From positions 22,892,501 to 22,956,500 of the forward strand of contig CP142457.1 in NCBI GenBank assembly GCA_038049695.1: DNA of 64,000 nucleotides, read 5' to 3'. The DNA comes from Cinnamomum chago (taxonomy: Eukaryota; Streptophyta; Magnoliopsida; Laurales; Lauraceae). Positions 728-36,200 of this stretch are shown piece by piece. The notes below the pieces were generated by a model. That model did not search any database. It was not told where the DNA came from and saw only the letters and a list, made by a program, of their open reading frames with translations. The translations under genes were made by a program, and so were the position numbers. Each line of letters opens with the position of its first letter. Position 1 is the stretch's first letter.

Positions 728-1052
728 CCGAAACCCCATTTAGAGTAAAACGCAATCCCGGAGTATTCCAAACGGAGTCTTTGGACCAAGAGTCGCATGA
801 AACACAGTGTTGAGTCAACAACTTTCTAGAGCCGCACAGATTATGTTTTCGTTCAAAAGTACCGTACGACCCTCGCACGAAGTTCCGGTTCTCGCCCTGG
901 CAAACACTGAACTCCCCGAAAGTGATTTCCACACCCAAGACTCGCCCGAAACCCGTAGTAAGCCGAAGTGTAGCTCGGAACATCCTAAAAATCGCATCTC
1001 ATCCCAAAATCCCTTCATATGGATTTAGAGGCGTACGACAAGACAGGGACAT
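728..1052. repeat. Satellite monomer type 3 (325 bp), reference copy
   Basis: Last third of the unit. The 5' half resembles monomer 2; the 3' half has its own differences, such as GTAGTAAGCC where the other two have GTTTTAAACC. The conserved motif is at 942-955. The 791 A/C marker that separates R units from S units lies here. By eye, pairs of monomers are roughly three quarters to four fifths identical, far more diverged than whole units are from each other. This is the defining mark of an HOR. Confidence 0.9.
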
Positions 1053-10000: not shown

Positions 10001-13000
10001 CATACCCAAGGTTCGCCCGAAACCCGTTTTAAACCGAGAAGTAGCTCGAAATATCCTAAAATGTGCATCTCAACCCAGAATACCTTCAAATGGATTTCGA
10101 GGCGTGAGACAAGAGAAGGACACCCGAAACCCCTTCTAGAGTAAAACGTCATCCTGGAATTCTCTAGAGGGAGTCTTTGGACCAAGAGTCGCATTAAAAC
10201 ACAGTGTAGAGTCAACCATATGCTCGAGCCGCATAGATTGTGTTTTCGTACTAAAGGACCGTACGACCCGCACGAAGTTCGGGTTTCCGCCTTTACAAGC
10301 ACTGAACTCCCCGAATGTGTCTTCCCTACCCAAGATTCGCCCGAAACCCGTTTTAAACCGAAAAGTAGCTCGAAATATCTTAAAGAGCGCATCTCAACCC
10401 AGAATCCCTTCAAATGGATTTGGAGCCGTAAGGAAAGATAGAGACACCCGAAACCCCATTTAGAGTAAAACGCAATCCCGGAGTATTCCAAACGGAGTCT
10501 TTGGACCAAGAGTCGCATGAAACACAGTGTTGAGTCAACAACTTTCTAGAGCCGCACAGATTATGTTTTCGTTCAAAAGTACCGTACGACCCTCGCACGA
10601 AGTTCCGGTTCTCGCCCTGGCAAACACTGAACTCCCCGAAAGTGATTTCCACACCCAAGACTCGCCCGAAACCCGTAGTAAGCCGAAGTGTAGCTCGGAA
10701 CATCCTAAAAATCGCATCTCATCCCAAAATCCCTTCATATGGATTTAGAGGCGTACGACAAGACAGGGACATCCGAAACCCCTTTTAGTTTAAAACTTGA
10801 TCCCGGATATTTCTAGAGGTTGACTTTGTACACAGAGTCGCAACAAACAAGGTGTGGAGTCAACAATTTCCTAGTGCCGCAAAGATTCTGCTTTACTACA
10901 TAAGTATCGTACGTCCCGCGCGAAGTTCGGGTTTTCTCCTTTACAACCAGAGAACTCCCCGAAAGTGTTTACCATACCCAAGGTTCGCCCGAAACCCGTT
11001 TTAAACCGAGAAGTAGCTCGAAATATCCTAAAATGTGCATCTCAACCCAGAATACCTTCAAATGGATTTCGAGGCGTGAGACAAGAGAAGGACACCCGAA
11101 ACCCCTTCTAGAGTAAAACGTCATCCTGGAATTCTCTAGAGGGAGTCTTTGGACCAAGAGTCGCATTAAAACACAGTGTAGAGTCAACCTTATGCTCGAG
11201 CCGCATAGATTGTGTTTTCGTACTAAAGGACCGTACGACCCGCACGAAGTTCGGGTTTCCGCCTTTACAAACACTGAACTCCCCGAATGTGTCTTCCCTA
11301 CCCAAGATTCGCCCGAAACCCGTTTTAAACCGAAAAGTAGCTCGAAATATCTTAAAGAGCGCATCTCAACCCAGAATCCCTTCAAATGGATTTGGAGCCG
11401 TAAGGAAAGATAGAGACACCCGAAACCCCATTTAGAGTAAAACGCAATCCCGGAGTATTCCAAACGGAGTCTTTGGACCAAGAGTCGCATGAAACACAGT
11501 GTTGAGTCAACAACTTTCTAGAGCCGCACACATTATGTTTTCGTTCAAAAGTACCGTACGACCCTCGCACGAAGTTCCGGTTCTCGCCCTGGCAAACACT
11601 GAACTCCCCGAAAGTGATTTCCACACCCAAGACTCGCCCGAAACCCGTAGTAAGCCGAAGTGTAGCTCGGAACATCCTAAAAATCGCATCTCATCCCAAA
11701 ATCCCTTCATATGGATTTAGAGGCGTACGACAAGACAGGGACATCCGAAACCCCTTTTAGTTTAAAACTTGATCCCGGATATTTCTAGAGGTTGACTTTG
11801 TACACAGAGTCGCAACAAACAAGGTGTGGAGTCAACAATTTCCTAGTGCCGCAAAGATTCTGCTTTACTACATAAGTATCGTACGTCCCGCGCGAAGTTC
11901 GGGTTTTCTCCTTTACAACCAGAGAACTCCCCGAAAGTGTTTACCATACCCAAGGTTCGCCCGAAACCCGTTTTAAACCGAGAAGTAGCTCGAAATATCC
12001 TAAAATGTGCATCTCAACCCAGAATACCTTCAAATGGATTTCGAGGCGTGAGACAAGAGAAGGACACCCGAAACCCCTTCTAGAGTAAAACGTGATCCTG
12101 GAATTCTCTAGAGGGAGTCTTTGGACCAAGAGTCGCATTAAAACACAGTGTAGAGTCAACCATATGCTCGAGCCGCATAGATTGTGTTTTCGTACTAAAG
12201 GACCGTACGACCCGCACGAAGTTCGGGTTTCCGCCTTTACAAACACTGAACTCCCCGAATGTGTCTTCCCTACCCAAGATTCGCCCGAAACCCGTTTTAA
12301 ACCGAAAAGTAGCTCGAAATATCTTAAAGAGCGCATCTCAACCCAGAATCCCTTCAAATGGATTTGGAGCCGTAAGGAAAGATAGAGACACCCGAAACCC
12401 CATTTAGAGTAAAACGCAATCCCGGAGTATTCCAAACGGAGTCTTTGGACCAAGAGTCGCATGAAACACAGTGTTGAGTCAACAACTTTCTAGAGCCGCA
12501 CAGATTATGTTTTCGTTCAAAAGTACCGTACGACCCTCGCACGAAGTTCCGGTTCTCGCCCTGGCAAACACTGAACTCCCCGAAAGTGATTTCCACACCC
12601 AAGACTCGCCCGAAACCCGTAGTAAGCCGAAGTGTAGCTCGGAACATCCTAAAAATCGCATCTCATCCCAAAATCCCTTCATATGGATTTAGAGGCGTAC
12701 GACAAGACAGGGACATCCGAAACCCCTTTTAGTTTAAAACTTGATCCCGGATATTTCTAGAGGTTGACTTTGTACACAGAGTCGCAACAAACAAGGTGTG
12801 GAGTCAACAATTTCCTAGTGCCGCAAAGATTCTGCTTTACTACATAAGTATCGTACGTCCCGCGCGAAGTTCGGGTTTTCTCCTTTACAACCAGAGAACT
12901 CCCCGAAAGTGTTTACCATACCCAAGGTTCGCCCGAAACCCGTTTTAAACCGAGAAGTAGCTCGAAATATCCTAAAATGTGCATCTCAACCCAGAATACC

Positions 13001-14660
13001 TTCAAATGGATTTCGAGGCGTGAGACAAGAGAAGGACACCCGAAACCCCTTCTAGAGTAAAACGTCATCCTGGAATTCTCTAGAGGGAGTCTTTGGACCA
13101 AGAGTCGCATTAAAACACAGTGTAGAGTCAACCTTATGCTCGAGCCGCATAGATTGTGTTTTCGTACTAAAGGACCGTACGACCCGCACGAAGTTCGGGT
13201 TTCCGCCTTTACAAACACTGAACTCCCCGAATGTGTCTTCCCTACCCAAGATTCGCCCGAAACCCGTTTTAAACCGAAAAGTAGCTCGAAATATCTTAAA
13301 GAGCGCATCTCAACCCAGAATCCCTTCAAATGGATTTGGAGCCGTAAGGAAAGATAGAGACACCCGAAACCCCATTTAGAGTAAAACGCAATCCCGGAGT
13401 ATTCCAAACGGAGTCTTTGGACCAAGCGTCGCATGAAACACAGTGTTGAGTCAACAACTTTCTAGAGCCGCACAGATTATGTTTTCGTTCAAAAGTACCG
13501 TACGACCCTCGCACGAAGTTCCGGTTCTCGCCCTGGCAAACACTGAACTCCCCGAAAGTGATTTCCACACCCAAGACTCGCCCGAAACCCGTAGTAAGCC
13601 GAAGTGTAGCTCGGAACATCCTAAAAATCGCATCTCATCCCAAAATCCCTTCATATGGATTTAGAGGCGTACGACAAGACAGGGACATCCGAAACCCCTT
13701 TTAGTTTAAAACTTGATCCCGGATATTTCTAGAGGTTGACTTTGTACACAGAGTCGCAACAAACAAGGTGTGGAGTCAACAATTTCCTAGTGCCGCAAAG
13801 ATTCTGCTTTACTACATAAGTATCGTACGTCCCGCGCGAAGTTCGGGTTTTCTCCTTTACAACCAGAGAACTCCCCGAAAGTGTTTACCATACCCAAGGT
13901 TCGCCCGAAACCCGTTTTAAACCGAGAAGTAGCTCGAAATATCCTAAAATGTGCATCTCAACCCAGAATACCTTCAAATGGATTTCGAGGCGTGAGACAA
14001 GAGAAGGACACCCGAAACCCCTTCTAGAGTAAAACGTCATCCTGGAATTCTCTAGAGGGAGTCTTTGGACCAAGAGTCGCATTAAAACACAGTGTAGAGT
14101 CAACCTTATGCTCGAGCCGCATAGATTGTGTTTTCGTACTAAAGGACCGTACGACCCGCACGAAGTTCGGGTTTCCGCCTTTACAAACACTGAACTCCCC
14201 GAATGTGTCTTCCCTACCCAAGATTCGCCCGAAACCCGTTTTAAACCGAAAAGTAGCTCGAAATATCTTAAAGAGCGCATCTCAACCCAGAATCCCTTCA
14301 AATGGATTTGGAGCCGTAAGGAAAGATAGAGACACCCGAAACCCCATTTAGAGTAAAACGCAATCCCGGAGTATTCCAAACGGAGTCTTTGGACCAAGAG
14401 TCGCATGAAACACAGTGTTGAGTCAACAACTTTCTAGAGCCGCACACATTATGTTTTCGTTCAAAAGTACCGTACGACCCTCGCACGAAGTTCCGGTTCT
14501 CGCCCTGGCAAACACTGAACTCCCCGAAAGTGATTTCCACACCCAAGACTCGCCCGAAACCCGTAGTAAGCCGAAGTGTAGCTCGGAACATCCTAAAAAT
14601 CGCATCTCATCCCAAAATCCCTTCATATGGATTTAGAGGCGTACGACAAGACAGGGACAT
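1053..14660. repeat. HOR units 2-15, mixed haplotype order
   Basis: Fourteen units of exactly 972 bp. The order is R, W, S, L, L, R, W-like with C at 7305, R, R, mosaic, S, mosaic, R, S. Private changes relative to the common base are T at 1238 (unit 2), A at 8488 (unit 9), T at 8986 and A at 9177 (unit 10). C at 11531 (unit 12) and C at 14447 (unit 15) are the same change 2916 bp apart, marking a three-unit duplication. Units 11 (9801-10772) and 13 (11745-12716) are recombinants of L-type and other alleles. Confidence 0.88.
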
Positions 14661-15632
14661 CCGAAACCCCTTTTAGTTTAAAACTTGATCCCGGATATTT
14701 CTAGAGGTTGACTTTGTACACAGAGTCGCAACAAACAAGGTGTGGAGTCAACAATTTCCTAGTGCCGCAAAGATTCTGCTTTACTACATAAGTATCGTAC
14801 GTCCCGCGCGAAGTTCGGGTTTTCTCCTTTACAACCAGAGAACTCCCCGAAAGTGTTTACCATACCCAAGGTTCGCCCGAAACCCGTTTTAAACCGAGAA
14901 GTAGCTCGAAATATCCTAAAATGTGCATCTCAACCCAGAATACCTTCAAATGGATTTCGAGGCGTGAGACAAGAGAAAGACACCCGAAACCCCTTCTAGA
15001 GTAAAACGTGATCCTGGAATTCTCTAGAGGGAGTCTTTGGACCAAGAGTCGCATTAAAACACAGTGTAGAGTCAACCATATGCTCGAGCCGCATAGATTG
15101 TGTTTTCGTACTAAAGGACCGTACGACCCGCACGAAGTTCGGGTTTCCGCCTTTACAAGCACTGAACTCCCCGAATGTGTCTTCCCTACCCAAGATTCGC
15201 CCGAAACCCGTTTTAAACCGAAAAGTAGCTCGAAATATCTTAAAGAGCGCATCTCAACCCAGAATCCCTTCAAATGGATTTGGAGCCGTAAGGAAAGATA
15301 GAGACACCCGAAACCCCATTTAGAGTAAAACGCAATCCCGGAGTATTCCAAACGGAGTCTTTGGACCAAGAGTCGCATGAAACACAGTGTTGAGTCAACA
15401 ACTTTCTAGAGCCGCACAGATTATGTTTTCGTTCAAAAGTACCGTACGACCCTCGCACGAAGTTCCGGTTCTCGCCCTGGCAAACACTGAACTCCCCGAA
15501 AGTGATTTCCACACCCAAGACTCGCCCGAAACCCGTAGTAAGCCGAAGTGTAGCTCGGAACATCCTAAAAATCGCATCTCATCCCAAAATCCCTTCATAT
15601 GGATTTAGAGGCGTACGACAAGACAGGGACAT
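14661..15632. repeat. HOR unit 16, haplotype L
   Basis: A plain L unit (A,G,A,G,A) with no private change seen. It stands between S unit 15 and the regular R-W-S-L block. Confidence 0.88.
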
Positions 15633-18600
15633 CCGAAACCCCTTTTAGTTTAAAACTTGATCCCGGATATTTCTAGAGGTTGACTTTGTACACAGAGTCG
15701 CAACAAACAAGGTGTGGAGTCAACAATTTCCTAGTGCCGCAAAGATTCTGCTTTACTACATAAGTATCGTACGTCCCGCGCGAAGTTCGGGTTTTCTCCT
15801 TTACAACCAGAGAACTCCCCGAAAGTGTTTACCATACCCAAGGTTCGCCCGAAACCCGTTTTAAACCGAGAAGTAGCTCGAAATATCCTAAAATGTGCAT
15901 CTCAACCCAGAATACCTTCAAATGGATTTCGAGGCGTGAGACAAGAGAAGGACACCCGAAACCCCTTCTAGAGTAAAACGTCATCCTGGAATTCTCTAGA
16001 GGGAGTCTTTGGACCAAGAGTCGCATTAAAACACAGTGTAGAGTCAACCTTATGCTCGAGCCGCATAGATTGTGTTTTCGTACTAAAGGACCGTACGACC
16101 CGCACGAAGTTCGGGTTTCCGCCTTTACAAACACTGAACTCCCCGAATGTGTCTTCCCTACCCAAGATTCGCCCGAAACCCGTTTTAAACCGAAAAGTAG
16201 CTCGAAATATCTTAAAGAGCGCATCTCAACCCAGAATCCCTTCAAATGGATTTGGAGCCGTAAGGAAAGATAGAGACACCCGAAACCCCATTTAGAGTAA
16301 AACGCAATCCCGGAGTATTCCAAACGGAGTCTTTGGACCAAGCGTCGCATGAAACACAGTGTTGAGTCAACAACTTTCTAGAGCCGCACAGATTATGTTT
16401 TCGTTCAAAAGTACCGTACGACCCTCGCACGAAGTTCCGGTTCTCGCCCTGGCAAACACTGAACTCCCCGAAAGTGATTTCCACACCCAAGACTCGCCCG
16501 AAACCCGTAGTAAGCCGAATTGTAGCTCGGAACATCCTAAAAATCGCATCTCATCCCAAAATCCCTTCATATGGATTTAGAGGCGTACGACAAGACAGGG
16601 ACATCCGAAACCCCTTTTAGTTTAAAACTTGATCCCGGATATTTCTAGAGGTTGACTTTGTACACAGAGTCGCAACAAACAAGGTGTGGAGTCAACAATT
16701 TCCTAGTGCCGCAAAGATTCTGCTTTACTACATAAGTATCGTACGTCCCGCGCGAAGTTCGGGTTTTCTCCTTTACAACCAGAGAACTCCCCGAAAGTGT
16801 TTACCATACCCAAGGTTCGCCCGAAACCCGTTTTAAACCGAGAAGTAGCTCGAAATATCCTAAAATGTGCATCTCAACCCAGAATACCTTCAAATGGATT
16901 TCGAGGCGTGAGACAAGAGAAGGACACCCGAAACCCCTTCTAGAGTAAAACGTCATCCTGGAATTCTCTAGAGGGAGTCTTTGGACCAAGAGTCGCATTA
17001 AAACACAGTGTAGAGTCAACCATATGCTCGAGCCGCATAGATTGTGTTTTCGTACTAAAGGACCGTACGACCCGCACGAAGTTCGGGTTTCCGCCTTTAC
17101 AAACACTGAACTCCCCGAATGTGTCTTCCCTACCCAAGATTCGCCCGAAACCCGTTTTAAACCGAAAAGTAGCTCGAAATATCTTAAAGAGCGCATCTCA
17201 ACCCAGAATCCCTTCAAATGGATTTGGAGCCGTAAGGAAAGATAGAGACACCCGAAACCCCATTTAGAGTAAAACGCAATCCCGGAGTATTCCAAACGGA
17301 GTCTTTGGACCAAGAGTCGCATGAAACACAGTGTTGAGTCAACAACTTTCTAGAGCCGCACAGATTATGTTTTCGTTCAAAAGTACCGTACGACCCTCGC
17401 ACGAAGTTCCGGTTCTCGCCCTGGCAAACACTGAACTCCCCGAAAGTGATTTCCACACCCAAGACTCGCCCGAAACCCGTAGTAAGCCGAAGTGTAGCTC
17501 GGAACATCCTAAAAATCGCATCTCATCCCAAAATCCCTTCATATGGATTTAGAGGCGTACGACAAGACAGGGACATCCGAAACCCCTTTTAGTTTAAAAC
17601 TTGATCCCGGATATTTCTAGAGGTTGACTTTGTACACAGAGTCGCAACAAACAAGGTGTGGAGTCAACAATTTCCTAGTGCCGCAAAGATTCTGCTTTAC
17701 TACATAAGTATCGTACGTCCCGCGCGAAGTTCGGGTTTTCTCCTTTACAACCAGAGAACTCCCCGAAAGTGTTTACCATACCCAAGGTTCGCCCGAAACC
17801 CGTTTTAAACCGAGAAGTAGCTCGAAATATCCTAAAATGTGCATCTCAACCCAGAATACCTTCAAATGGATTTCGAGGCGTGAGACAAGAGAAGGACACC
17901 CGAAACCCCTTCTAGAGTAAAACGTCATCCTGGAATTCTCTAGAGGGAGTCTTTGGACCAAGAGTCGCATTAAAACACAGTGTAGAGTCAACCTTATGCT
18001 CGAGCCGCATAGATTGTGTTTTCGTACTAAAGGACCGTACGACCCGCACGAAGTTCGGGTTTCCGCCTTTACAAACACTGAACTCCCCGAATGTGTCTTC
18101 CCTACCCAAGATTCGCCCGAAACCCGTTTTAAACCGAAAAGTAGCTCGAAATATCTTAAAGAGCGCATCTCAACCCAGAATCCCTTCAAATGGATTTGGA
18201 GCCGTAAGGAAAGATAGAGACACCCGAAACCCCATTTAGAGTAAAACGCAATCCCGGAGTATTCCAAACGGAGTCTTTGGACCAAGAGTCGCATGAAACA
18301 CAGTGTTGAGTCAACAACTTTCTAGAGCCGCACAGATTATGTTTTCGTTCAAAAGTACCGTACGACCCTCGCACGAAGTTCCGGTTCTCGCCCTGGCAAA
18401 CACTGAACTCCCCGAAAGTGATTTCCACACCCAAGACTCGCCCGAAACCCGTAGTAAGCCGAAGTGTAGCTCGGAACATCCTAAAAATCGCATCTCATCC
18501 CAAAATCCCTTCATATGGATTTAGAGGCGTACGACAAGACAGGGACATCCGAAACCCCTTTTAGTTTAAAACTTGATCCCGGATATTTCTAGAGGTTGAC

Positions 18601-21600
18601 TTTGTACACAGAGTCGCAACAAACAAGGTGTGGAGTCAACAATTTCCTAGTGCCGCAAAGATTCTGCTTTACTACATAAGTATCGTACGTCCCGCGCGAA
18701 GTTCGGGTTTTCTCCTTTACAACCAGAGAACTCCCCGAAAGTGTTTACCATACCCAAGGTTCGCCCGAAACCCGTTTTAAACCGAGAAGTAGCTCGAAAT
18801 ATCCTAAAATGTGCATCTCAACCCAGAATACCTTCAAATGGATTTCGAGGCGTGAGACAAGAGAAAGACACCCGAAACCCCTTCTAGAGTAAAACGTGAT
18901 CCTGGAATTCTCTAGAGGGAGTCTTTGGACCAAGAGTCGCATTAAAACACAGTGTAGAGTCAACCATATGCTCGAGCCGCATAGATTGTGTTTTCGTACT
19001 AAAGGACCGTACGACCCGCACGAAGTTCGGGTTTCCGCCTTTACAAGCACTGAACTCCCCGAATGTGTCTTCCCTACCCAAGATTCGCCCGAAACCCGTT
19101 TTAAACCGAAAAGTAGCTCGAAATATCTTAAAGAGCGCATCTCAACCCAGAATCCCTTCAAATGGATTTGGAGCCGTAAGGAAAGATAGAGACACCCGAA
19201 ACCCCATTTAGAGTAAAACGCAATCCCGGAGTATTCCAAACGGAGTCTTTGGACCAAGAGTCGCATGAAACACAGTGTTGAGTCAACAACTTTCTAGAGC
19301 CGCACAGATTATGTTTTCGTTCAAAAGTACCGTACGACCCTCGCACGAAGTTCCGGTTCTCGCCCTGGCAAACACTGAACTCCCCGAAAGTGATTTCCAC
19401 ACCCAAGACTCGCCCGAAACCCGTAGTAAGCCGAAGTGTAGCTCGGAACATCCTAAAAATCGCATCTCATCCCAAAATCCCTTCATATGGATTTAGAGGC
19501 GTACGACAAGACAGGGACATCCGAAACCCCTTTTAGTTTAAAACTTGATCCCGGATATTTCTAGAGGTTGACTTTGTACACAGAGTCGCAACAAACAAGG
19601 TGTGGAGTCAACAATTTCCTAGTGCCGCAAAGATTCTGCTTTACTACATAAGTATCGTACGTCCCGCGCGAAGTTCGGGTTTTCTCCTTTACAACCAGAG
19701 AACTCCCCGAAAGTGTTTACCATACCCAAGGTTCGCCCGAAACCCGTTTTAAACCGAGAAGTAGCTCGAAATATCCTAAAATGTGCATCTCAACCCAGAA
19801 TACCTTCAAATGGATTTCGAGGCGTGAGACAAGAGAAGGACACCCGAAACCCCTTCTAGAGTAAAACGTCATCCTGGAATTCTCTAGAGGGAGTCTTTGG
19901 ACCAAGAGTCGCATTAAAACACAGTGTAGAGTCAACCATATGCTCGAGCCGCATAGATTGTGTTTTCGTACTAAAGGACCGTACGACCCGCACGAAGTTC
20001 GGGTTTCCGCCTTTACAAACACTGAACTCCCCGAATGTGTCTTCCCTACCCAAGATTCGCCCGAAACCCGTTTTAAACCGAAAAGTAGCTCGAAATATCT
20101 TAAAGAGCGCATCTCAACCCAGAATCCCTTCAAATGGATTTGGAGCCGTAAGGAAAGATAGAGACACCCGAAACCCCATTTAGAGTAAAACGCAATCCCG
20201 GAGTATTCCAAACGGAGTCTTTGGACCAAGAGTCGCATGAAACACAGTGTTGAGTCAACAACTTTCTAGAGCCGCACAGATTATGTTTTCGTTCAAAAGT
20301 ACCGTACGACCCTCGCACGAAGTTCCGGTTCTCGCCCTGGCAAACACTGAACTCCCCGAAAGTGATTTCCACACCCAAGACTCGCCCGAAACCCGTAGTA
20401 AGCCGAAGTGTAGCTCGGAACATCCTAAAAATCGCATCTCATCCCAAAATCCCTTCATATGGATTTAGAGGCGTACGACAAGACAGGGACATCCGAAACC
20501 CCTTTTAGTTTAAAACTTGATCCCGGATATTTCTAGAGGTTGACTTTGTACACAGAGTCGCAACAAACAAGGTGTGGAGTCAACAATTTCCTAGTGCCGC
20601 AAAGATTCTGCTTTACTACATAAGTATCGTACGTCCCGCGCGAAGTTCGGGTTTTCTCCTTTACAACCAGAGAACTCCCCGAAAGTGTTTACCATACCCA
20701 AGGTTCGCCCGAAACCCGTTTTAAACCGAGAAGTAGCTCGAAATATCCTAAAATGTGCATCTCAACCCAGAATACCTTCAAATGGATTTCGAGGCGTGAG
20801 ACAAGAGAAGGACACCCGAAACCCCTTCTAGAGTAAAACGTCATCCTGGAATTCTCTAGAGGGAGTCTTTGGACCAAGAGTCGCATTAAAACACAGTGTA
20901 GAGTCAACCTTATGCTCGAGCCGCATAGATTGTGTTTTCGTACTAAAGGACCGTACGACCCGCACGAAGTTCGGGTTTCCGCCTTTACAAACACTGAACT
21001 CCCCGAATGTGTCTTCCCTACCCAAGATTCGCCCGAAACCCGTTTTAAACCGAAAAGTAGCTCGAAATATCTTAAAGAGCGCATCTCAACCCAGAATCCC
21101 TTCAAATGGATTTGGAGCCGTAAGGAAAGATAGAGACACCCGAAACCCCATTTAGAGTAAAACGCAATCCCGGAGTATTCCAAACGGAGTCTTTGGACCA
21201 AGAGTCGCATGAAACACAGTGTTGAGTCAACAACTTTCTAGAGCCGCACAGATTATGTTTTCGTTCAAAAGTACCGTACGACCCTCGTACGAAGTTCCGG
21301 TTCTCGCCCTGGCAAACACTGAACTCCCCGAAAGTGATTTCCACACCCAAGACTCGCCCGAAACCCGTAGTAAGCCGAAGTGTAGCTCGGAACATCCTAA
21401 AAATCGCATCTCATCCCAAAATCCCTTCATATGGATTTAGAGGCGTACGACAAGACAGGGACATCCGAAACCCCTTTTAGTTTAAAACTTGATCCCGGAT
21501 ATTTCTAGAGGTTGACTTTGTACACAGAGTCGCAACAAACAAGGTGTGGAGTCAACAATTTCCTAGTGCCGCAAAGATTCTGCTTTACTACATAAGTATC

Positions 21601-24600
21601 GTACGTCCCGCGCGAAGTTCGGGTTTTCTCCTTTACAACCAGAGAACTCCCCGAAAGTGTTTACCATACCCAAGGTTCGCCCGAAACCCGTTTTAAACCG
21701 AGAAGTAGCTCGAAATATCCTAAAATGTGCATCTCAACCCAGAATACCTTCAAATGGATTTCGAGGCGTGAGACAAGAGAAAGACACCCGAAACCCCTTC
21801 TAGAGTAAAACGTGATCCTGGAATTCTCTAGAGGGAGTCTTTGGACCAAGAGTCGCATTAAAACACAGTGTAGAGTCAACCATATGCTCGAGCCGCATAG
21901 ATTGTGTTTTCGTACTAAAGGACCGTACGACCCGCACGAAGTTCGGGTTTCCGCCTTTACAAGCACTGAACTCCCCGAATGTGTCTTCCCTACCCAAGAT
22001 TCGCCCGAAACCCGTTTTAAACCGAAAAGTAGCTCGAAATATCTTAAAGAGCGCATCTCAACCCAGAATCCCTTCAAATGGATTTGGAGCCGTAAGGAAA
22101 GATAGAGACACCCGAAACCCCATTTAGAGTAAAACGCAATCCCGGAGTATTCCAAACGGAGTCTTTGGACCAAGAGTCGCATGAAACACAGTGTTGAGTC
22201 AACAACTTTCTAGAGCCGCACAGATTATGTTTTCGTTCAAAAGTACCGTACGACCCTCGCACGAAGTTCCGGTTCTCGCCCTGGCAAACACTGAACTCCC
22301 CGAAAGTGATTTCCACACCCAAGACTCGCCCGAAACCCGTAGTAAGCCGAAGTGTAGCTCGGAACATCCTAAAAATCGCATCTCATCCCAAAATCCCTTC
22401 ATATGGATTTAGAGGCGTACGACAAGACAGGGACATCCGAAACCCCTTTTAGTTTAAAACTTGATCCCGGATATTTCTAGAGGTTGACTTTGTACACAGA
22501 GTCGCAACAAACAAGGTGTGGAGTCAACAATTTCCTAGTGCCGCAAAGATTCTGCTTTACTACATAAGTATCGTACGTCCCGCGCGAAGTTCGGGTTTTC
22601 TCCTTTACAACCAGAGAACTCCCCGAAAGTGTTTACCATACCCAAGGTTCGCCCGAAACCCGTTTTAAACCGAGAAGTAGCTCGAAATATCCTAAAATGT
22701 GCATCTCAACCCAGAATACCTTCAAATGGATTTCGAGGCGTGAGACAAGAGAAGGACACCCGAAACCCCTTCTAGAGTAAAACGTCATCCTGGAATTCTC
22801 TAGAGGGAGTCTTTGGACCAAGAGTCGCATTAAAACACAGTGTAGAGTCAACCTTATGCTCGAGCCGCATAGATTGTGTTTTCGTACTAAAGGACCGTAC
22901 GACCCGCACGAAGTTCGGGTTTCCGCCTTTACAAACACTGAACTCCCCGAATGTGTCTTCCCTACCCAAGATTCGCCCGAAACCCGTTTTAAACCGAAAA
23001 GTAGCTCGAAATATCTTAAAGAGCGCATCTCAACCCAGAATCCCTTCAAATGGATTTGGAGCCGTAAGGAAAGATAGAGACACCCGAAACCCCATTTAGA
23101 GTAAAACGCAATCCCGGAGTATTCCAAACGGAGTCTTTGGACCAAGCGTCGCATGAAACACAGTGTTGAGTCAACAACTTTCTAGAGCCGCACAGATTAT
23201 GTTTTCGTTCAAAAGTACCGTACGACCCTCGCACGAAGTTCCGGTTCTCGCCCTGGCAAACACTGAACTCCCCGAAAGTGATTTCCACACCCAAGACTCG
23301 CCCGAAACCCGTAGTAAGCCGAAGTGTAGCTCGGAACATCCTAAAAATCGCATCTCATCCCAAAATCCCTTCATATGGATTTAGAGGCGTACGACAAGAC
23401 AGGGACATCCGAAACCCCTTTTAGTTTAAAACTTGATCCCGGATATTTCTAGAGGTTGACTTTGTACACAGAGTCGCAACAAACAAGGTGTGGAGTCAAC
23501 AATTTCCTAGTGCCGCAAAGATTCTGCTTTACTACATAAGTATCGTACGTCCCGCGCGAAGTTCGGGTTTTCTCCTTTACAACCAGAGAACTCCCCGAAA
23601 GTGTTTACCATACCCAAGGTTCGCCCGAAACCCGTTTTAAACCGAGAAGTAGCTCGAAATATCCTAAAATGTGCATCTCAACCCAGAATACCTTCAAATG
23701 GATTTCGAGGCGTGAGACAAGAGAAGGACACCCGAAACCCCTTCTAGAGTAAAACGTCATCCTGGAATTCTCTAGAGGGAGTCTTTGGACCAAGAGTCGC
23801 ATTAAAACACAGTGTAGAGTCAACCATATGCTCGAGCCGCATAGATTGTGTTTTCGTACTAAAGGACCGTACGACCCGCACGAAGTTCGGGTTTCCGCCT
23901 TTACAAACACTGAACTCCCCGAATGTGTCTTCCCTACCCAAGATTCGCCCGAAACCCGTTTTAAACTGAAAAGTAGCTCGAAATATCTTAAAGAGCGCAT
24001 CTCAACCCAGAATCCCTTCAAATGGATTTGGAGCCGTAAGGAAAGATAGAGACACCCGAAACCCCATTTAGAGTAAAACGCAATCCCGGAGTATTCCAAA
24101 CGGAGTCTTTGGACCAAGAGTCGCATGAAACACAGTGTTGAGTCAACAACTTTCTAGAGCCGCACAGATTATGTTTTCGTTCAAAAGTACCGTACGACCC
24201 TCGCACGAAGTTCCGGTTCTCGCCCTGGCAAACACTGAACTCCCCGAAAGTGATTTCCACACCCAAGACTCGCCCGAAACCCGTAGTAAGCCGAAGTGTA
24301 GCTCGGAACATCCTAAAAATCGCATCTCATCCCAAAATCCCTTCATATGGATTTAGAGGCGTACGACAAGACAGGGACATCCGAAACCCCTTTTAGTTTA
24401 AAACTTGATCCCGGATATTTCTAGAGGTTGACTTTGTACACAGAGTCGCAACAAACAAGGTGTGGAGTCAACAATTTCCTAGTGCCGCAAAGATTCTGCT
24501 TTACTACATAAGTATCGTACGTCCCGCGCGAAGTTCGGGTTTTCTCCTTTACAACCAGAGAACTCCCCGAAAGTGTTTACCATACCCAAGGTTCGCCCGA

Positions 24601-27600
24601 AACCCGTTTTAAACCGAGAAGTAGCTCGAAATATCCTAAAATGTGCATCTCAACCCAGAATACCTTCAAATGGATTTCGAGGCGTGAGACAAGAGAAGGA
24701 CACCCGAAACCCCTTCTAGAGTAAAACGTCATCCTGGAATTCTCTAGAGGGAGTCTTTGGACCAAGAGTCGCATTAAAACACAGTGTAGAGTCAACCTTA
24801 TGCTCGAGCCGCATAGATTGTGTTTTCGTACTAAAGGACCGTACGACCCGCACGAAGTTCGGGTTTCCGCCTTTACAAACACTGAACTCCCCGAATGTGT
24901 CTTCCCTACCCAAGATTCGCCCGAAACCCGTTTTAAACCGAAAAGTAGCTCGAAATATCTTAAAGAGCGCATCTCAACCCAGAATCCCTTCAAATGGATT
25001 TGGAGCCGTAAGGAAAGATAGAGACACCCGAAACCCCATTTAGAGTAAAACGCAATCCCGGAGTATTCCAAACGGAGTCTTTGGACCAAGAGTCGCATGA
25101 AACACAGTGTTGAGTCAACAACTTTCTAGAGCCGCACAGATTATGTTTTCGTTCAAAAGTACCGTACGACCCTCGCACGAAGTTCCGGTTCTCGCCCTGG
25201 CAAACACTGAACTCCCCGAAAGTGATTTCCACACCCAAGACTCGCCCGAAACCCGTAGTAAGCCGAAGTGTAGCTCGGAACATCCTAAAAATCGCATCTC
25301 ATCCCAAAATCCCTTCATATGGATTTAGAGGCGTACGACAAGACAGGGACATCCGAAACCCCTTTTAGTTTAAAACTTGATCCCGGATATTTCTAGAGGT
25401 TGACTTTGTACACAGAGTCGCAACAAACAAGGTGTGGAGTCAACAATTTCCTAGTGCCGCAAAGATTCTGCTTTACTACATAAGTATCGTACGTCCCGCG
25501 CGAAGTTCGGGTTTTCTCCTTTACAACCAGAGAACTCCCCGAAAGTGTTTACCATACCCAAGGTTCGCCCGAAACCCGTTTTAAACCGAGAAGTAGCTCG
25601 AAATATCCTAAAATGTGCATCTCAACCCAGAATACCTTCAAATGGATTTCGAGGCGTGAGACAAGAGAAAGACACCCGAAACCCCTTCTAGAGTAAAACG
25701 TGATCCTGGAATTCTCTAGAGGGAGTCTTTGGACCAAGAGTCGCATTAAAACACAGTTTAGAGTCAACCATATGCTCGAGCCGCATAGATTGTGTTTTCG
25801 TACTAAAGGACCGTACGACCCGCACGAAGTTCGGGTTTCCGCCTTTACAAGCACTGAACTCCCCGAATGTGTCTTCCCTACCCAAGATTCGCCCGAAACC
25901 CGTTTTAAACCGAAAAGTAGCTCGAAATATCTTAAAGAGCGCATCTCAACCCAGAATCCCTTCAAATGGATTTGGAGCCGTAAGGAAAGATAGAGACACC
26001 CGAAACCCCATTTAGAGTAAAACGCAATCCCGGAGTATTCCAAACGGAGTCTTTGGACCAAGAGTCGCATGAAACACAGTGTTGAGTCAACAACTTTCTA
26101 GAGCCGCACAGATTATGTTTTCGTTCAAAAGTACCGTACGACCCTCGCACGAAGTTCCGGTTCTCGCCCTGGCAAACACTGAACTCCCCGAAAGTGATTT
26201 CCACACCCAAGACTCGCCCGAAACCCGTAGTAAGCCGAAGTGTAGCTCGGAACATCCTAAAAATCGCATCTCATCCCAAAATCCCTTCATATGGATTTAG
26301 AGGCGTACGACAAGACAGGGACATCCGAAACCCCTTTTAGTTTAAAACTTGATCCCGGATATTTCTAGAGGTTGACTTTGTACACAGAGTCGCAACAAAC
26401 AAGGTGTGGAGTCAACAATTTCCTAGTGCCGCAAAGATTCTGCTTTACTACATAAGTATCGTACGTCCCGCGCGAAGTTCGGGTTTTCTCCTTTACAACC
26501 AGAGAACTCCCCGAAAGTGTTTACCATACCCAAGGTTCGCCCGAAACCCGTTTTAAACCGAGAAGTAGCTCGAAATATCCTAAAATGTGCATCTCAACCC
26601 AGAATACCTTCAAATGGATTTCGAGGCGTGAGACAAGAGAAGGACACCCGAAACCCCTTCTAGAGTAAAACGTCATCCTGGAATTCTCTAGAGGGAGTCT
26701 TTGGACCAAGAGTCGCATTAAAACACAGTGTAGAGTCAACCATACGCTCGAGCCGCATAGATTGTGTTTTCGTACTAAAGGACCGTACGACCCGCACGAA
26801 GTTCGGGTTTCCGCCTTTACAAACACTGAACTCCCCGAATGTGTCTTCCCTACCCAAGATTCGCCCGAAACCCGTTTTAAACCGAAAAGTAGCTCGAAAT
26901 ATCTTAAAGAGCGCATCTCAACCCAGAATCCCTTCAAATGGATTTGGAGCCGTAAGGAAAGATAGAGACACCCGAAACCCCATTTAGAGTAAAACGCAAT
27001 CCCGGAGTATTCCAAACGGAGTCTTTGGACCAAGCGTCGCATGAAACACAGTGTTGAGTCAACAACTTTCTAGAGCCGCACAGATTATGTTTTCGTTCAA
27101 AAGTACCGTACGACCCTCGCACGAAGTTCCGGTTCTCGCCCTGGCAAACACTGAACTCCCCGAAAGTGATTTCCACACCCAAGACTCGCCCGAAACCCGT
27201 AGTAAGCCGAAGTGTAGCTCGGAACATCCTAAAAATCGCATCTCATCCCAAAATCCCTTCATATGGATTTAGAGGCGTACGACAAGACAGGGACATCCGA
27301 AACCCCTTTTAGTTTAAAACTTGATCCCGGATATTTCTAGAGGTTGACTTTGTACACAGAGTCGCAACAAACAAGGTGTGGAGTCAACAATTTCCTAGTG
27401 CCGCAAAGATTCTGCTTTACTACATAAGTATCGTACGTCCCGCGCGAAGTTCGGGTTTTCTCCTTTACAACCAGAGAACTCCCCGAAAGTGTTTACCATA
27501 CCCAAGGTTCGCCCGAAACCCGTTTTAAACCGAGAAGTAGCTCGAAATATCCTAAAATGTGCATCTCAACCCAGAATACCTTCAAATGGATTTCGAGGCG

Positions 27601-30212
27601 TGAGACAAGAGAAGGACACCCGAAACCCCTTCTAGAGTAAAACGTCATCCTGGAATTCTCTAGAGGGAGTCTTTGGACCAAGAGTCGCATTAAAACACAG
27701 TGTAGAGTCAACCATATGCTCGAGCCGCATAGATTGTGTTTTCGTACTAAAGGACCGTACGACCCGCACGAAGTTCGGGTTTCCGCCTTTACAAACACTG
27801 AACTCCCCGAATGTGTCTTCCCTACCCAAGATTCGCCCGAAACCCGTTTTAAACCGAAAAGTAGCTCGAAATATCTTAAAGAGCGCATCTCAACCCAGAA
27901 TCCCTTCAAATGGATTTGGAGCCGTAAGGAAAGATAGAGACACCCGAAACCCCATTTAGAGTAAAACGCAATCCCGGAGTATTCCAAACGGAGTCTTTGG
28001 ACCAAGAGTCGCATGAAACACAGTGTTGAGTCAACAACTTTCTAGAGCCGCACAGATTATGTTTTCGTTCAAAAGTACCGTACGACCCTCGCACGAAGTT
28101 CCGGTTCTCGCCCTGGCAAACACTGAACTCCCCGAAAGTGATTTCCACACCCAAGACTCGCCCGAAACCCGTAGTAAGCCGAAGTGTAGCTGGGAACATC
28201 CTAAAAATCGCATCTCATCCCAAAATCCCTTCATATGGATTTAGAGGCGTACGACAAGACAGGGACATCCGAAACCCCTTTTAGTTTAAAACTTGATCCC
28301 GGATATTTCTAGAGGTTGACTTTGTACACAGAGTCGCAACAAACAAGGTGTGGAGTCAACAATTTCCTAGTGCCGCAAAGATTCTGCTTTACTACATAAG
28401 TATCGTACGTCCCGCGCGAAGTTCGGGTTTTCTCCTTTACAACCAGAGAACTCCCCGAAAGTGTTTACCATACCCAAGGTTCGCCCGAAACCCGTTTTAA
28501 ACCGAGAAGTAGCTCGAAATATCCTAAAATGTGCATCTCAACCCAGAATACCTTCAAATGGATTTCGAGGCGTGAGACAAGAGAAGGACACCCGAAACCC
28601 CTTCTAGAGTAAAACGTCATCCTGGAATTCTCTAGAGGGAGTCTTTGGACCAAGAGTCGCATTAAAACACAGTGTAGAGTCAACCTTATGCTCGAGCCGC
28701 ATAGATTGTGTTTTCGTACTAAAGGACCGTACGACCCGCACGAAGTTCGGGTTTCCGCCTTTACAAACACTGAACTCCCCGAATGTGTCTTCCCTACCCA
28801 AGATTCGCCCGAAACCCGTTTTAAACCGAAAAGTAGCTCGAAATATCTTAAAGAGCGCATCTCAACCCAGAATCCCTTCAAATGGATTTGGAGCCGTAAG
28901 GAAAGATAGAGACACCCGAAACCCCATTTAGAGTAAAACGCAATCCCGGAGTATTCCAAACGGAGTCTTTGGACCAAGAGTCGCATGAAACACAGTGTTG
29001 AGTCAACAACTTTCTAGAGCCGCACAGATTATGTTTTCGTTCAAAAGTACCGTACGACCCTCGCACGAAGTTCCGGTTCTCGCCCTGGCAAACACTGAAC
29101 TCCCCGAAAGTGATTTCCACACCCAAGACTCGCCCGAAACCCGTAGTAAGCCGAAGTGTAGCTCGGAACATCCTAAAAATCGCATCTCATCCCAAAATCC
29201 CTTCATATGGATTTAGAGGCGTACGACAAGACAGGGACATCCGAAACCCCTTTTAGTTTAAAACTTGATCCCGGATATTTCTAGAGGTTGACTTTGTACA
29301 CAGAGTCGCAACAAACAAGGTGTGGAGTCAACAATTTCCTAGTGCCGCAAAGATTCTGCTTTACTACATAAGTATCGTACGTCCCGCGCGAAGTTCGGGT
29401 TTTCTCCTTTACAACCAGAGAACTCCCCGAAAGTGTTTACCATACCCAAGGTTCGCCCGAAACCCGTTTTAAACCGAGAAGTAGCTCGAAATATCCTAAA
29501 ATGTGCATCTCAACCCAGAATACCTTCAAATGGATTTCGAGGCGTGAGACAAGAGAAAGACACCCGAAACCCCTTCTAGAGTAAAACGTGATCCTGGAAT
29601 TCTCTAGAGGGAGTCTTTGGACCAAGAGTCGCATTAAAACACAGTGTAGAGTCAACCATATGCTCGAGCCGCATAGATTGTGTTTTCGTACTAAAGGACC
29701 GTACGACCCGCACGAAGTTCGGGTTTCCGCCTTTACAAGCACTGAACTCCCCGAATGTGTCTTCCCTACCCAAGATTCGCCCGAAACCCGTTTTAAACCG
29801 AAAAGTAGCTCGAAATATCTTAAAGAGCGCATCTCAACCCAGAATCCCTTCAAATGGATTTGGAGCCGTAAGGAAAGATAGAGACACCCGAAACCCCATT
29901 TAGAGTAAAACGCAATCCCGGAGTATTCCAAACGGAGTCTTTGGACCAAGAGTCGCATGAAACACAGTGTTGAGTCAACAACTTTCTAGAGCCGCACAGA
30001 TTATGTTTTCGTTCAAAAGTACCGTACGACCCTCGCACGAAGTTCCGGTTCTCGCCCTGGCAAACACTGAACTCCCCGAAAGTGATTTCCACACCCAAGA
30101 CTCGCCCGAAACCCGTAGTAAGCCGAAGTGTAGCTCGGAACATCCTAAAAATCGCATCTCATCCCAAAATCCCTTCATATGGATTTAGAGGCGTACGACA
30201 AGACAGGGACAT
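15633..30212. repeat. HOR units 17-31: second-tier R-W-S-L repeat (about 3.9 kb)
   Basis: Fifteen units run R-W-S-L, W-S-L, R-W-S-L, R*-W-S-L, i.e. a four-unit (3888-bp) super-repeat with one R missing in the second round. R* (unit 28, 26325-27296) has the R base at the 791-equivalent site but CATACG instead of CTTATG at 26741-26746. The same order occurs once earlier, in units 2-5 (1053-4940). Private single-base changes mark individual units: T at 16520, T at 21288, T at 23967, T at 25758, G at 28192. All units here are exactly 972 bp. Confidence 0.85.
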
Positions 30213-33200
30213 CCGAAACCCCTTTTAGTTTAAAACTTGATCCCGGATATTTCTAGAGGTTGACTTTGTACACAGAGTCGCAACAAACAAGGTGTGGAGT
30301 CAACAATTTCCTAGTGCCGCAAAGATTCTGCTTTACTACATAAGTATCGTACGTCCCGCGCGAAGTTCGGGTTTTCTCCTTTACAACCAGAGAACTCCCC
30401 GAAAGTGTTTACCATACCCAAGGTTCGCCCGAAACCCGTTTTAAACCGAGAAGTAGCTCGAAATATCCTAAAATGTGCATCTCAACCCAGAATACCTTCA
30501 AATGGATTTCGAGGCGTGAGACAAGAGAAGGACACCCGAAACCCCTTCTAGAGTAAAACGTCATCCTGGAATTCTCTAGAGGGAGTCTTTGGACCAAGAG
30601 TCGCATTAAAACACAGTGTAGAGTCAACCTTATGCTCGAGCCGCATAGATTGTGTTTTCGTACTAAAGGACCGTACGACCCGCACGAAGTTCGGGTTTCC
30701 GCCTTTACAAACACTGAACTCCCCGAATGTGTCTTCCCTACCCAAGATTCGCCCGAAACCCGTTTTAAACCGAAAAGTAGCTCGAAATATCTTAAAGAGC
30801 GCATCTCAACCCAGAATCCCTTCAAATGGATTTGGAGCCGTAAGGAAAGATAGAGACACCCGAAACCCCATTTAGAGTAAAACGCAATCCCGGAGTATTC
30901 CAAACGGAGTCTTTGGACCAAGCGTCGCATGAAACACAGTGTTGAGTCAACAACTTTCTAGAGCCGCACAGATTATGTTTTCGTTCAAAAGTACCGTACG
31001 ACCCTCGCACGAAGTTCCGGTTCTCGCCCTGGCAAACACTGAACTCCCCGAAAGTGATTTCCACACCCAAGACTCGCCCGAAACCCGTAGTAAGCCGAAG
31101 TGTAGCTCGGAACATCCTAAAAATCGCATCTCATCCCAAAATCCCTTCATATGGATTTAGAGGCGTACGACAAGACAGGGACATCCGAAACCCCTTTTAG
31201 TTTAAAACTTGATCCCGGATATTTCTAGAGGTTGACTTTGTACACAGAGTCGCAACAAACAAGGTGTGGAGTCAACAATTTCCTAGTGCCGCAAAGATTC
31301 TGCTTTACTACATAAGTATCGTACGTCCCGCGCGAAGTTCGGGTTTTCTCCTTTACAACCAGAGAACTCCCCGAAAGTGTTTACCATACCCAAGGTTCGC
31401 CCGAAACCCGTTTTAAACCGAGAAGTAGCTCGAAATATCCTAAAATGTGCATCTCAACCCAGAATACCTTCAAATGGATTTCGAGGCGTGAGACAAGAGA
31501 AGGACACCCGAAACCCCTTCTAGAGTAAAACGTCATCCTGGAATTCTCTAGAGGGAGTCTTTGGACCAAGAGTCGCATTAAAACACAGTGTAGAGTCAAC
31601 CATATGCTCGAGCCGCATAGATTGTGTTTTCGTACTAAAGGACCGTACGACCCGCACGAAGTTCGGGTTTCCGCCTTTACAAACACTGAACTCCCCGAAT
31701 GTGTCTTCCCTACCCAAGATTCGCCCGAAACCCGTTTTAAACCGAAAAGTAGCTCGAAATATCTTAAAGAGCGCATCTCAACCCAGAATCCCTTCAAATG
31801 GATTTGGAGCCGTAAGGAAAGATAGAGACACCCGAAACCCCATTTAGAGTAAAACGCAATCCCGGAGTATTCCAAACGGAGTCTTTGGACCAAGAGTCGC
31901 ATGAAACACAGTGTTGAGTCAACAACTTTCTAGAGCCGCACAGATTATGTTTTCGTTCAAAAGTACCGTACGACCCTCGCACGAAGTTCCGGTTCTCGCC
32001 CTGGCAAACACTGAACTCCCCGAAAGTGATTTCCACACCCAAGACTCGCCCGAAACCCGTAGTAAGCCGAAGTGTAGCTCGGAACATCCTAAAAATCGCA
32101 TCTCATCCCAAAATCCCTTCATATGGATTTAGAGGCGTACGACAAGACAGGGACATCCGAAACCCCTTTTAGTTTAAAACTTGATCCCGGATATTTCTAG
32201 AGGTTGACTTTGTACACAGAGTCGCAACAAACAAGGTGTGGAGTCAACAATTTCCTAGTGCCGCAAAGATTCTGCTTTACTACATAAGTATCGTACGTCC
32301 CGCGCGAAGTTCGGGTTTTCTCCTTTACAACCAGAGAACTCCCCGAAAGTGTTTACCATACCCAAGGTTCGCCCGAAACCCGTTTTAAACCGAGAAGTAG
32401 CTCGAAATATCCTAAAATGTGCATCTCAACCCAGAATACCTTCAAATGGATTTCGAGGCGTGAGACAAGAGAAGGACACCCGAAACCCCTTCTAGAGTAA
32501 AACGTCATCCTGGAATTCTCTAGAGGGAGTCTTTGGACCAAGAGTCGCATTAAAACACAGTGTAGAGTCAACCATATGCTCGAGCCGCATAGATTGTGTT
32601 TTCGTACTAAAGGACCGTACGACCCGCACGAAGTTCGGGTTTCCGCCTTTACAAGCACTGAACTCCCCGAATGTGTCTTCCCTACCCAAGATTCGCCCGA
32701 AACCCGTTTTAAACCGAAAAGTAGCTCGAAATATCTTAAAGAGCGCATCTCAACCCAGAATCCCTTCAAATGGATTTGGAGCCGTAAGGAAAGATAGAGA
32801 CACCCGAAACCCCATTTAGAGTAAAACGCAATCCCGGAGTATTCCAAACGGAGTCTTTGGACCAAGAGTCGCATGAAACACAGTGTTGAGTCAACAACTT
32901 TCTAGAGCCGCACAGATTATGTTTTCGTTCAAAAGTACCGTACGACCCTCGCACGAAGTTCCGGTTCTCGCCCTGGCAAACACTGAACTCCCCGAAAGTG
33001 ATTTCCACACCCAAGACTCGCCCGAAACCCGTAGTAAGCCGAAGTGTAGCTCGGAACATCCTAAAAATCTCATCTCATCCCAAAATCCCTTCATATGGAT
33101 TTAGAGGCGTACGACAAGACAGGGACATCCGAAACCCCTTTTAGTTTAAAACTTGATCCCGGATATTTCTAGAGGTTGACTTTGTACACAGAGTCGCAAC

Positions 33201-36200
33201 AAACAAGGTGTGGAGTCAACAATTTCCTAGTGCCGCAAAGATTCTGCTTTACTACATAAGTATCGTACGTCCCGCGCGAAGTTCGGGTTTTCTCCTTTAC
33301 AACCAGAGAACTCCCCGAAAGTGTTTACCATACCCAAGGTTCGCCCGAAACCCGTTTTAAACCGAGAAGTAGCTCGAAATATCCTAAAATGTGCATCTCA
33401 ACCCAGAATACCTTCAAATGGATTTCGAGGCGTGAGACAAGAGAAAGACACCCGAAACCCCTTCTAGAGTAAAACGTGATCCTGGAATTCTCTAGAGGGA
33501 GTCTTTGGACCAAGAGTCGCATTAAAACACAGTGTAGAGTCAACCATATGCTCGAGCCGCATAGATTGTGTTTTCGTACTAAAGGACCGTACGACCCGCA
33601 CGAAGTTCGGGTTTCCGCCTTTACAAGCACTGAACTCCCCGAATGTGTCTTCCCTACCCAAGATTCGCCCGAAACCCGTTTTAAACCGAAAAGTAGCTCG
33701 AAATATCTTAAAGAGCGCATCTCAACCCAGAATCCCTTCAAATGGATTTGGAGCCGTAAGGAAAGATAGAGACACCCGAAACCCCATTTAGAGTAAAACG
33801 CAATCCCGGAGTATTCCAAACGGAGTCTTTGGACCAAGAGTCGCATGAAACACAGTGTTGAGTCAACAACTTTCTAGAGCCGCACAGATTATGTTTTCGT
33901 TCAAAAGTACCGTACGACCCTCGCACGAAGTTCCGGTTCTCGCCCTGGCAAACACTGAACTCCCCGAAAGTGATTTCCACACCCAAGACTCGCCCGAAAC
34001 CCGTAGTAAGCCGAAGTGTAGCTCGGAACATCCTAAAAATCGCATCTCATCCCAAAATCCCTTCATATGGATTTAGAGGCGTACGACAAGACAGGGACAT
34101 CCGAAACCCCTTTTAGTTTAAAACTTGATCCCGGATATTTCTAGAGGTTGACTTTGTACACAGAGTCGCAACAAACAAGGTGTGGAGTCAACAATTTCCT
34201 AGTGCCGCAAAGATTCTGCTTTACAACATAAGTATCGTACGTCCCGCGCGAAGTTCGGGTTTTCTCCTTTACAACCAGAGAACTCCCCGAAAGTGTTTAC
34301 CATACCCAAGGTTCGCCCGAAACCCGTTTTAAACCGAGAAGTAGCTCGAAATATCCTAAAATGTGCATCTCAACCCAGAATACCTTCAAATGGATTTCGA
34401 GGCGTGAGACAAGAGAAGGACACCCGAAACCCCTTCTAGAGTAAAACGTCATCCTGGAATTCTCTAGAGGGAGTCTTTGGACCAAGAGTCGCATTAAAAC
34501 ACAGTGTAGAGTCAACCTTATGCTCGAGCCGCATAGATTGTGTTTTCGTACTAAAGGACCGTACGACCCGCACGAAGTTCGGGTTTCCGCCTTTACAAAC
34601 ACTGAACTCCCCGAATGTGTCTTCCCTACCCAAGATTCGCCCGAAACCCGTTTTAAACCGAAAAGTAGCTCGAAATATCTTAAAGAGCGCATCTCAACCC
34701 AGAATCCCTTCAAATGGATTTGGAGCCGTAAGGAAAGATAGAGACACCCGAAACCCCATTTAGAGTAAAACGCAATCCCGGAGTATTCCAAACGGAGTCT
34801 TTGGACCAAGCGTCGCATGAAACACAGTGTTGAGTCAACAACTTTCTAGAGCCGCACAGATTATGTTTTCGTTCAAAAGTACCGTACGACCCTCGCACGA
34901 AGTTCCGGTTCTCGCCCTGGCAAACACTGAACTCCCCGAAAGTGATTTCCACACCCAAGACTCGCCCGAAACCCGTAGTAAGCCGAAGTGTAGCTCGGAA
35001 CATCCTAAAAATCGCATCTCATCCCAAAATCCCTTCATATGGATTTAGAGGCGTACGACAAGACAGGGACATCCGAAACCCCTTTTAGTTTAAAACTTGA
35101 TCCCGGATATTTCTAGAGGTTGACTTTGTACACAGAGTCGCAACAAACAAGGTGTGGAGTCAACAATTTCCTAGTGCCGCAAAGATTCTGCTTTACTACA
35201 TAAGTATCGTACGTCCCGCGCGAAGTTCGGGTTTTCTCCTTTACAACCAGAGAACTCCCCGAAAGTGTTTACCATACCCAAGGTTCGCCCGAAACCCGTT
35301 TTAAACCGAGAAGTAGCTCGAAATATCCTAAAATGTGCATCTCAACCCAGAATACCTTCAAATGGATTTCGAGGCGTGAGACAAGAGAAGGACACCCGAA
35401 ACCCCTTCTAGAGTAAAACGTCATCCTGGAATTCTCTAGAGGGAGTCTTTGGACCAAGAGTCGCATTAAAACACAGTGTAGAGTCAACCATATGCTCGAG
35501 CCGCATAGATTGTGTTTTCGTACTAAAGGACCGTACGACCCGCACGAAGTTCGGGTTTCCGCCTTTACAAACACTGAACTCCCCGAATGTGTCTTCCCTA
35601 CCCAAGATTCGCCCGAAACCCGTTTTAAACCGAAAAGTAGCTCGAAATATCTTAAAGAGCGCATCTCAACCCAGAATCCCTTCAAATGGATTTGGAGCCG
35701 TAAGGAAAGATAGAGACACCCGAAACCCCATTTAGAGTAAAACGCAATCCCGGAGTATTCCAAACGGAGTCTTTGGACCAAGAGTCGCATGAAACACAGT
35801 GTTGAGTCAACAACTTTCTAGAGCCGCACAGATTATGTTTTCGTTCAAAAGTACCGTACGACCCTCGCACGAAGTTCCGGTTCTCGCCCTGGCAAACACT
35901 GAACTCCCCGAAAGTGATTTCCACACCCAAGACTCGCCCGAAACCCGTAGTAAGCCGAAGTGTAGCTCGGAACATCCTAAAAATCGCATCTCATCCCAAA
36001 ATCCCTTCATATGGATTTAGAGGCGTACGACAAGACAGGGACATCCGAAACCCCTTTTAGTTTAAAACTTGATCCCGGATATTTCTAGAGGTTGACTTTG
36101 TACACAGAGTCGCAACAAACAAGGTGTGGAGTCAACAATTTCCTAGTGCCGCAAAGATTCTGCTTTACTACATAAGTATCGTACGTCCCGCGCGAAGTTC

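Follow-up and report, generated by a model that had tools for sequence, protein, structure and literature searches.

The Cinnamomum chago genome paper includes a 323-bp tandem repeat motif as the putative centromere repeat (PMC11068913). It gives one consensus monomer, and its passages on the repeat mention neither a three-monomer unit nor an order of haplotypes. In avocado, a member of the same plant family, PaCEN1016 is described as a centromeric unit of ∼1 kb arranged head-to-tail (PMC11220182), and our comparison with it is by description only. Salicaceae centromeres are given as an example of plant higher-order repeats (HORs) (PMC12046899). In human alpha satellite, copies of one HOR are grouped by their shared variants into HOR-haps (PMC9811134), and in the CentromereArchitect description of human centromeres a superHOR is a repeat whose letters are HORs (PMC8336445). 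Our literature search for a 324-bp satellite returned no match, and neither the matches listed nor the passages cited here describe a 972-bp HOR or any higher ordering of such units for Lauraceae, which is no proof of its absence in print. Here we describe a stretch of C. chago DNA of 64,000 nucleotides (the window), in which the units of a 972-bp HOR carry four haplotypes that follow one another in a recurring order, and we weigh how this order may have arisen.

The whole window (1..64000, strand arbitrary) is a single satellite array, as judged from TRF, from unit anchors and from 26 variable columns in 65 units. Anchors placed in the three monomers repeat at 971-972 bp, apart from three double gaps where a variant disrupts the anchor, and by these anchors 65 full units of 972 bp (971-972) and one partial unit fill the window without interruption. 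Each unit consists of three ∼324-bp monomers in the order A-B-C, with consensus lengths of 323, 324 and 325 bp. In the first unit (U1, 1-972; the phase used in the preliminary description sits 80 bases later), monomer A occupies 1..323, monomer B 324..647 and monomer C 648..972, all on the + strand. The consensus monomers are 77-83% alike, while the mean identity between units is 99.67% and the A-B-C register is fixed in all 65 full units; the 972-bp unit is thus a HOR of three diverged monomers. The aligned full units (n = 65) vary at 26 columns, 14 of which are altered in one unit only, and each unit differs from the consensus at 0-5 sites. It had been predicted that a plain period finder would miss any four-unit tier above this unit, and TRF, run here with a period limit of 500 bp, gave a period of 323/324 only, across 1-64000.

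The published C. chago monomer aligns over its full length to each of the three consensus monomers, with identities of 86.4% for A, 92.9% for B and 88.3% for C (PMC11068913). Two sets of short stretches of the satellite, compared with the text of papers, both matched this paper; the one other match was an unrelated RIF1 paper that contains a single 12-letter stretch. In length (323/324/325 bp) and similarity (86-93%) the array belongs to the Cinnamomum-type 323/324-bp putative centromeric satellite, and the window is probably a stretch of centromere repeat, the putative label being that of one paper for a related monomer (PMC11068913). The differences from the published monomer are mostly private (36 columns in A, 17 in B and 29 in C, with 11 columns differing in two or three), so the three branch from the published monomer in a star, and it can be used as an outgroup. 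No plasmid DNA similar to the first unit was found, an exact 26-base satellite pattern had no match in viral contigs, and a 25-base pattern had none in prokaryote genomes. Rfam gave no match in 1-2000, and no tRNA was found in the 64-kb window. The core motif of the CENP-B box is TTCGNNNNANNCGGG; at one mismatch or fewer it has 0 matches, compared with 24.65 expected in shuffles. Twelve ORFs of at least 60 aa overlap the first two units and were not taken as genes.

Common variants among the units sit at five columns: 398, 430, 498 and 579, all in monomer B, and 791 in monomer C. At these columns 56 of the 66 units carry one of four haplotypes, namely R (GCTAC), W (GCAAA), S (GCTAA) and L (AGAGA). 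The preliminary description had read the units as an R-W-S-L series and listed no markers, and the letters were therefore assigned to haplotypes via the order itself. With this assignment, the order given for U17-31 (R-W-S-L, W-S-L, R-W-S-L, R*-W-S-L) and for U2-5 (R-W-S-L) is recovered in 19 of 19 units. As an observation on the markers, the R-W-S-L order depends on five sites.

The marker haplotypes place the cassettes as follows, all on the + strand. A complete R-W-S-L lies at 973..4860 (U2-5), and further ones at 15553..19440 (U17-20) and 22357..26244 (U24-27), the latter two separated by a W-S-L cassette without R at 19441..22356 (U21-23). The R*-W-S-L cassette follows at 26245..30132 (U28-31), where R* is U28, a recombinant-like haplotype (GCAAC) with 501C, a variant also present in U8. 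Past the end of the region described earlier there is an R-W-x-L cassette at 30133..34020 (U32-35), in which x is U34 (GCAGA), W-like on its left side and L-like on its right, and then a partial R-W-L cassette at 34021..36936 (U36-38). U17-38 are therefore six cassettes or partial cassettes in succession, and the four-unit order extends, with gaps, to about U38 (about 36936). The intact tetramer RWSL occurs three times in the 66 units. The remaining zone at 36937..64000 (U39-66, + strand), delimited by haplotypes and by lag-2 differences, is without four-unit order. It shows a lag-2 order with S-L and R-S pairs; one pair of units is duplicated (U57-58/U59-60), and the single units U61/U62 form a further pair, both carrying 438-.

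The R-W-S-L cyclic order is confirmed as non-random. When the steps R>W, W>S, S>L and L>R are counted and compared with 20,000 shuffles, all 66 units together contain 28 steps against 11.5 expected, and none of the shuffles reaches 28; this holds also when the best of the six cyclic orders is allowed, which covers the letter matching. U1-36 contain 21 steps against 6.7 expected, again reached by no shuffle, and leaving out U17-31 still gives 15 against 7.8 (p 0.0034). U1-16 have 6 steps where 2.5 are expected (p 0.022; allowing the best of six orders, 0.14), and in U37-66 no excess is seen (6 against 4.5, p 0.28). The four-unit order is thus real but fades along the window. The occurrence of any tetramer of four different classes as often as RWSL (three times) has a p of 0.0115. 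Of 65 adjacent pairs, 5 match in haplotype, fewer than the 12.1 expected by chance.

The lag-4 excess of class matches that would go with such an order is also present: 20 of 62 comparisons match, against 11.4 expected (p 0.0042; family-wise 0.051 over 20 lags). Within U17-31 the count is 6 of 11 against 2.0 (p 0.007, family-wise 0.033), and within U16-36, a stretch picked after inspection of the data, it is 10 of 17 against 3.0. No significant excess is found in U1-16 (1 of 12, 1.7 expected), in U32-66 (9 of 31, 6.1 expected, p 0.12) or in the two pooled (11 of 47, 8.6 expected, p 0.22). Lags 7, 15 and 18 are mildly raised too (p 0.02-0.03 each), and in a local scan the lag-4 signal has p 0.0006, rising to 0.015 over lags 1-24. 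Base differences between whole units at lag 4 are not significantly reduced in all units (3.00 against 3.21, p 0.16), nor, after correction, in U1-36 (2.50 against 2.95, p 0.049, family-wise 0.68). When neighbour pairs are preserved in the shuffles, lag 4 has p 0.035 over all units; in U1-36 p is 0.27, so that the period there is what the neighbour order implies. A 2-unit period is found in U37-65, with lag-2 differences of 2.41 against 3.49 expected (family-wise p 0.024). The lag-4 test was weaker than the cyclic-step test.

Rooting with the published monomer gives GGAAA as the ancestral five-column state, which is retained in U13 only. The rooted steps are nested: W is marked by 430C, S by the addition of 498T and R by the further addition of 791C, while L is a side branch with 398A and 579G that keeps the ancestral 430G. 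Among the 12 sites shared by at least two units, 17 of 66 site pairs are incompatible, showing all four consensus/non-consensus combinations in a test that pooled the three alleles of column 398; this implies recurrent change, or else transfer between units by exchange or gene conversion. Seven rarer variants are each present in 2-6 units, with nearest spacings (in units) of 2 and 2 for 124C, 35, 4 and 14 for 238T, 1 for 438-, 20 for 501C, 2 for 656A, 4, 8, 2, 4 and 2 for 671-, and 3 for 839C. Spacings of 1, 2, 3, 4 and more units indicate that copying was not limited to four-unit blocks. No rare shared variant recurs within U17-31, where 501C (in U28) is the only one of the seven present.

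Human HOR-haps, together with their layered expansion, are described with reference to Altemose et al. 2022 (PMC9811134). The C. chago satellite is a HOR with an order of haplotypes, similar to HOR-haps and to superHORs as these are described in the passages cited here. As in HOR-haps, units of one HOR fall into classes that share variants and have local spatial structure; the human classes are sets of different age and expansion layer, whereas here the four classes alternate by unit (PMC9811134). The likeness to superHORs lies in an ordered repeat with HORs as its letters (PMC8336445). The HORs of a superHOR are, however, monomer strings of differing composition, whereas the letters here are a single A-B-C string with single-base differences. 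Since 65 of 65 full units have this same string, the array works like a superHOR and is not one under the definition by different monomer strings (PMC8336445).

In a plant satellite, the order of markers from unit to unit offers a way to estimate the number of repeat units copied per event. Arrays of 200 units were simulated under mutation and the tandem duplication and deletion of blocks, and 66-unit windows with matched diversity were retained; gene conversion is left out of these simulations, and every haplotype counts as a new allele without order. In the first main set, 3,264 of 50,163 runs were retained as diversity-matched. The 65 nearest runs comprised 63 with geometric block means of 6-24 units, one with mean 4 and one 8-unit mixture, and the 163 nearest comprised 151 with means of 6-24, five with mean 4, four with a four-unit mixture and three with an 8-unit mixture. 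Block means of 3 or less were absent from both groups (0 of 65 and 0 of 163), and fixed sizes of 2-6 mixed with short blocks were absent from the 65 nearest. Fixed-size blocks combined with short random blocks gave a local periodicity that was too strong (medians 12.5-15 against 7 observed). Under these models, broad block duplication and deletion with a mean of about 6-24 units fits best, and single-unit or short-block exchange is disfavoured. Copying seems to have taken several 972-bp units at a time, because neighbours share a haplotype less often than by chance; expansion by single units was rejected on this ground and on the lack of short block means among the nearest runs.

Of the matched runs of broad-block models (mean 6-24), nevertheless, just 1-9% gave at least 28 cyclic steps and 4-11% reached the lag-4 value observed, so the order is rather strong for those models. 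In a second set, in which six models were compared on a background of broad blocks with mean 12, 4,939 of 57,903 runs were retained. Best among the six was the model with a 4-unit tier, which supplied 29 of the 98 nearest runs (844 retained) compared with 20 of 98 without a tier (867 retained), a ratio of ∼1.5 that becomes ∼1.3 among the 246 nearest. The observed lag-4 value was reached in 63.6% of the retained tier runs and in 4.3% of those without it. Given the small overall advantage, a 4-unit tier is possible and not required. In a smaller pilot simulation, a pure 4-unit model gave at least 28 cyclic steps in a proportion of 0.697 of 66 accepted runs, with a local periodicity far too strong (median 43 against 7 observed).

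We consider it probable that the window belongs to a putative centromeric array of 972-bp HORs in which block copying and deletion spread R-W-S-L over about U1-U38, and that the order has since frayed. Three diverged ∼324-bp monomers would have become fixed as the 972-bp HOR, and the four unit haplotypes would derive from one ancestor by few mutations. Copying and deletion of the unit may now proceed in register, several units at a time; such copying would have spread the R-W-S-L order, and later indels and exchanges would have frayed it. Unequal sister-chromatid exchange, gene conversion or break-induced replication are candidate pathways, and the block sizes, like the pathway, are what we infer. 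On this account the four-unit order is most probably an ordinary footprint of block copying and deletion. A dedicated R-W-S-L super-repeat of 3,888 bp, copied several times in tandem with later loss of single units, is the less likely account, to which we give perhaps a minor chance. It would explain the excess of cyclic steps (28 against 11.5), the six successive cassettes or partial cassettes of U17-38 and the local lag-4 scan (p 0.0006), and it is in keeping with the second simulation set, where a 4-unit tier on broad blocks was best. The longest exact repeat detected also falls at lag 4: it measures 3,493 bp and starts at 41616, outside the region described earlier. The total gain over no tier is, however, just about 1.3-1.5 fold, whole-unit differences at lag 4 are not significant after correction, U1-36 show no lag-4 signal beyond neighbour pairs, and rare variants never repeat within U17-31; the right half of the window has a 2-unit period instead. 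The preliminary reading of a four-unit cassette being amplified is thus partly supported: ordered classes and the copying of multi-unit blocks stand, and amplification of the cassette as a unit was overstated, with RWSL intact just three times and the tier so slightly favoured. That a tier of 3,888 bp (4 x 3 x 324 bp), marked by few single-base sites in an array that passes from a 4-unit to a 2-unit zone, is a true amplification unit in a magnoliid centromere we regard as improbable; if true, the succession of zones would be a direct record of successive changes in the copied block.

Two further accounts would make the order an illusion, rather than the trace of block copying preferred here. 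With classes defined by five sites only, and a lag-4 result that is borderline over 20 lags (family-wise p 0.051), a chance run picked by eye might be suspected. This was rejected by the cyclic-order test, in which 0 of 20,000 shuffles reached the observed count even for the best of six orders, and the excess outside U17-31 (p 0.0034) tells against it as well; we hold a chance origin to be extremely unlikely. An assembly artefact, in which a wrong or duplicated path was taken through near-identical units, is very unlikely, if slightly less so. Units only 0-5 sites from the consensus invite such errors, and consensus errors could be among the 14 variants, over about 63 kb, that occur in one unit only. 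A scan of offsets near multiples of 972 found, however, exact repeats of at most 3,493 bp. This is well below the usual lengths of accurate long reads, with which the order should therefore be resolvable. Moreover, the five markers are common to many units, are partly linked and, by eye, lie outside long homopolymers.

Among the first 36 successive 972-bp units of the array (U1-U36; 1-34992), whole-unit differences reach their minimum between units 15 apart (1.90 versus 2.95 expected; family-wise p 0.014), and an exact repeat of 3,317 bp, starting at 1941, occurs at this same lag. A larger block copy of 15 units is possible in this part of the array. U13 (11665-12636), which lies within this part, reads GGAAA across the five markers (unit columns 398, 430, 498, 579 and 791); this is the combination inferred to be ancestral, and no other of the 66 units has kept it in full.

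In the right part of the array (36937-64000), the period is two units, not four. Additional linked variants in this part (named by unit column and base, with "-" for a deletion) are 671-, 124C, 656A and 238T, the last of which is also present in U10. Here, U57-58 and U59-60 form a duplicated pair, and 438- is common to U61 and U62, a pair of single units. Three variants, 190T, 233C and 563A, are private to U55 (52487-53458), which is directly followed by a run of unusual haplotypes (U56-60).

Each unit comprises three ∼324-bp monomers (A, B and C; 1-323, 324-647 and 648-972 in U1), within which a weak self-match appears at an offset of 108 bp, a third of the monomer length (37.5% in A and in the published 323-bp putative centromere repeat of C. 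chago (PMC11068913), 36.4% in B and 32.0% in C). Since self-match is also raised at offset 69 in all three monomers, at 30 and 39 in C, at 78 in both B and the published monomer, and at 147 in the published monomer (38.4%), the monomer may contain an older sub-repeat of either ∼39 or 108 bp. When thirds of the published monomer were aligned and compared with 500 shuffles, the second and third did not match beyond chance (p 0.40), the first and second gave p 0.028, and the alignment of the first and third beat all 500.
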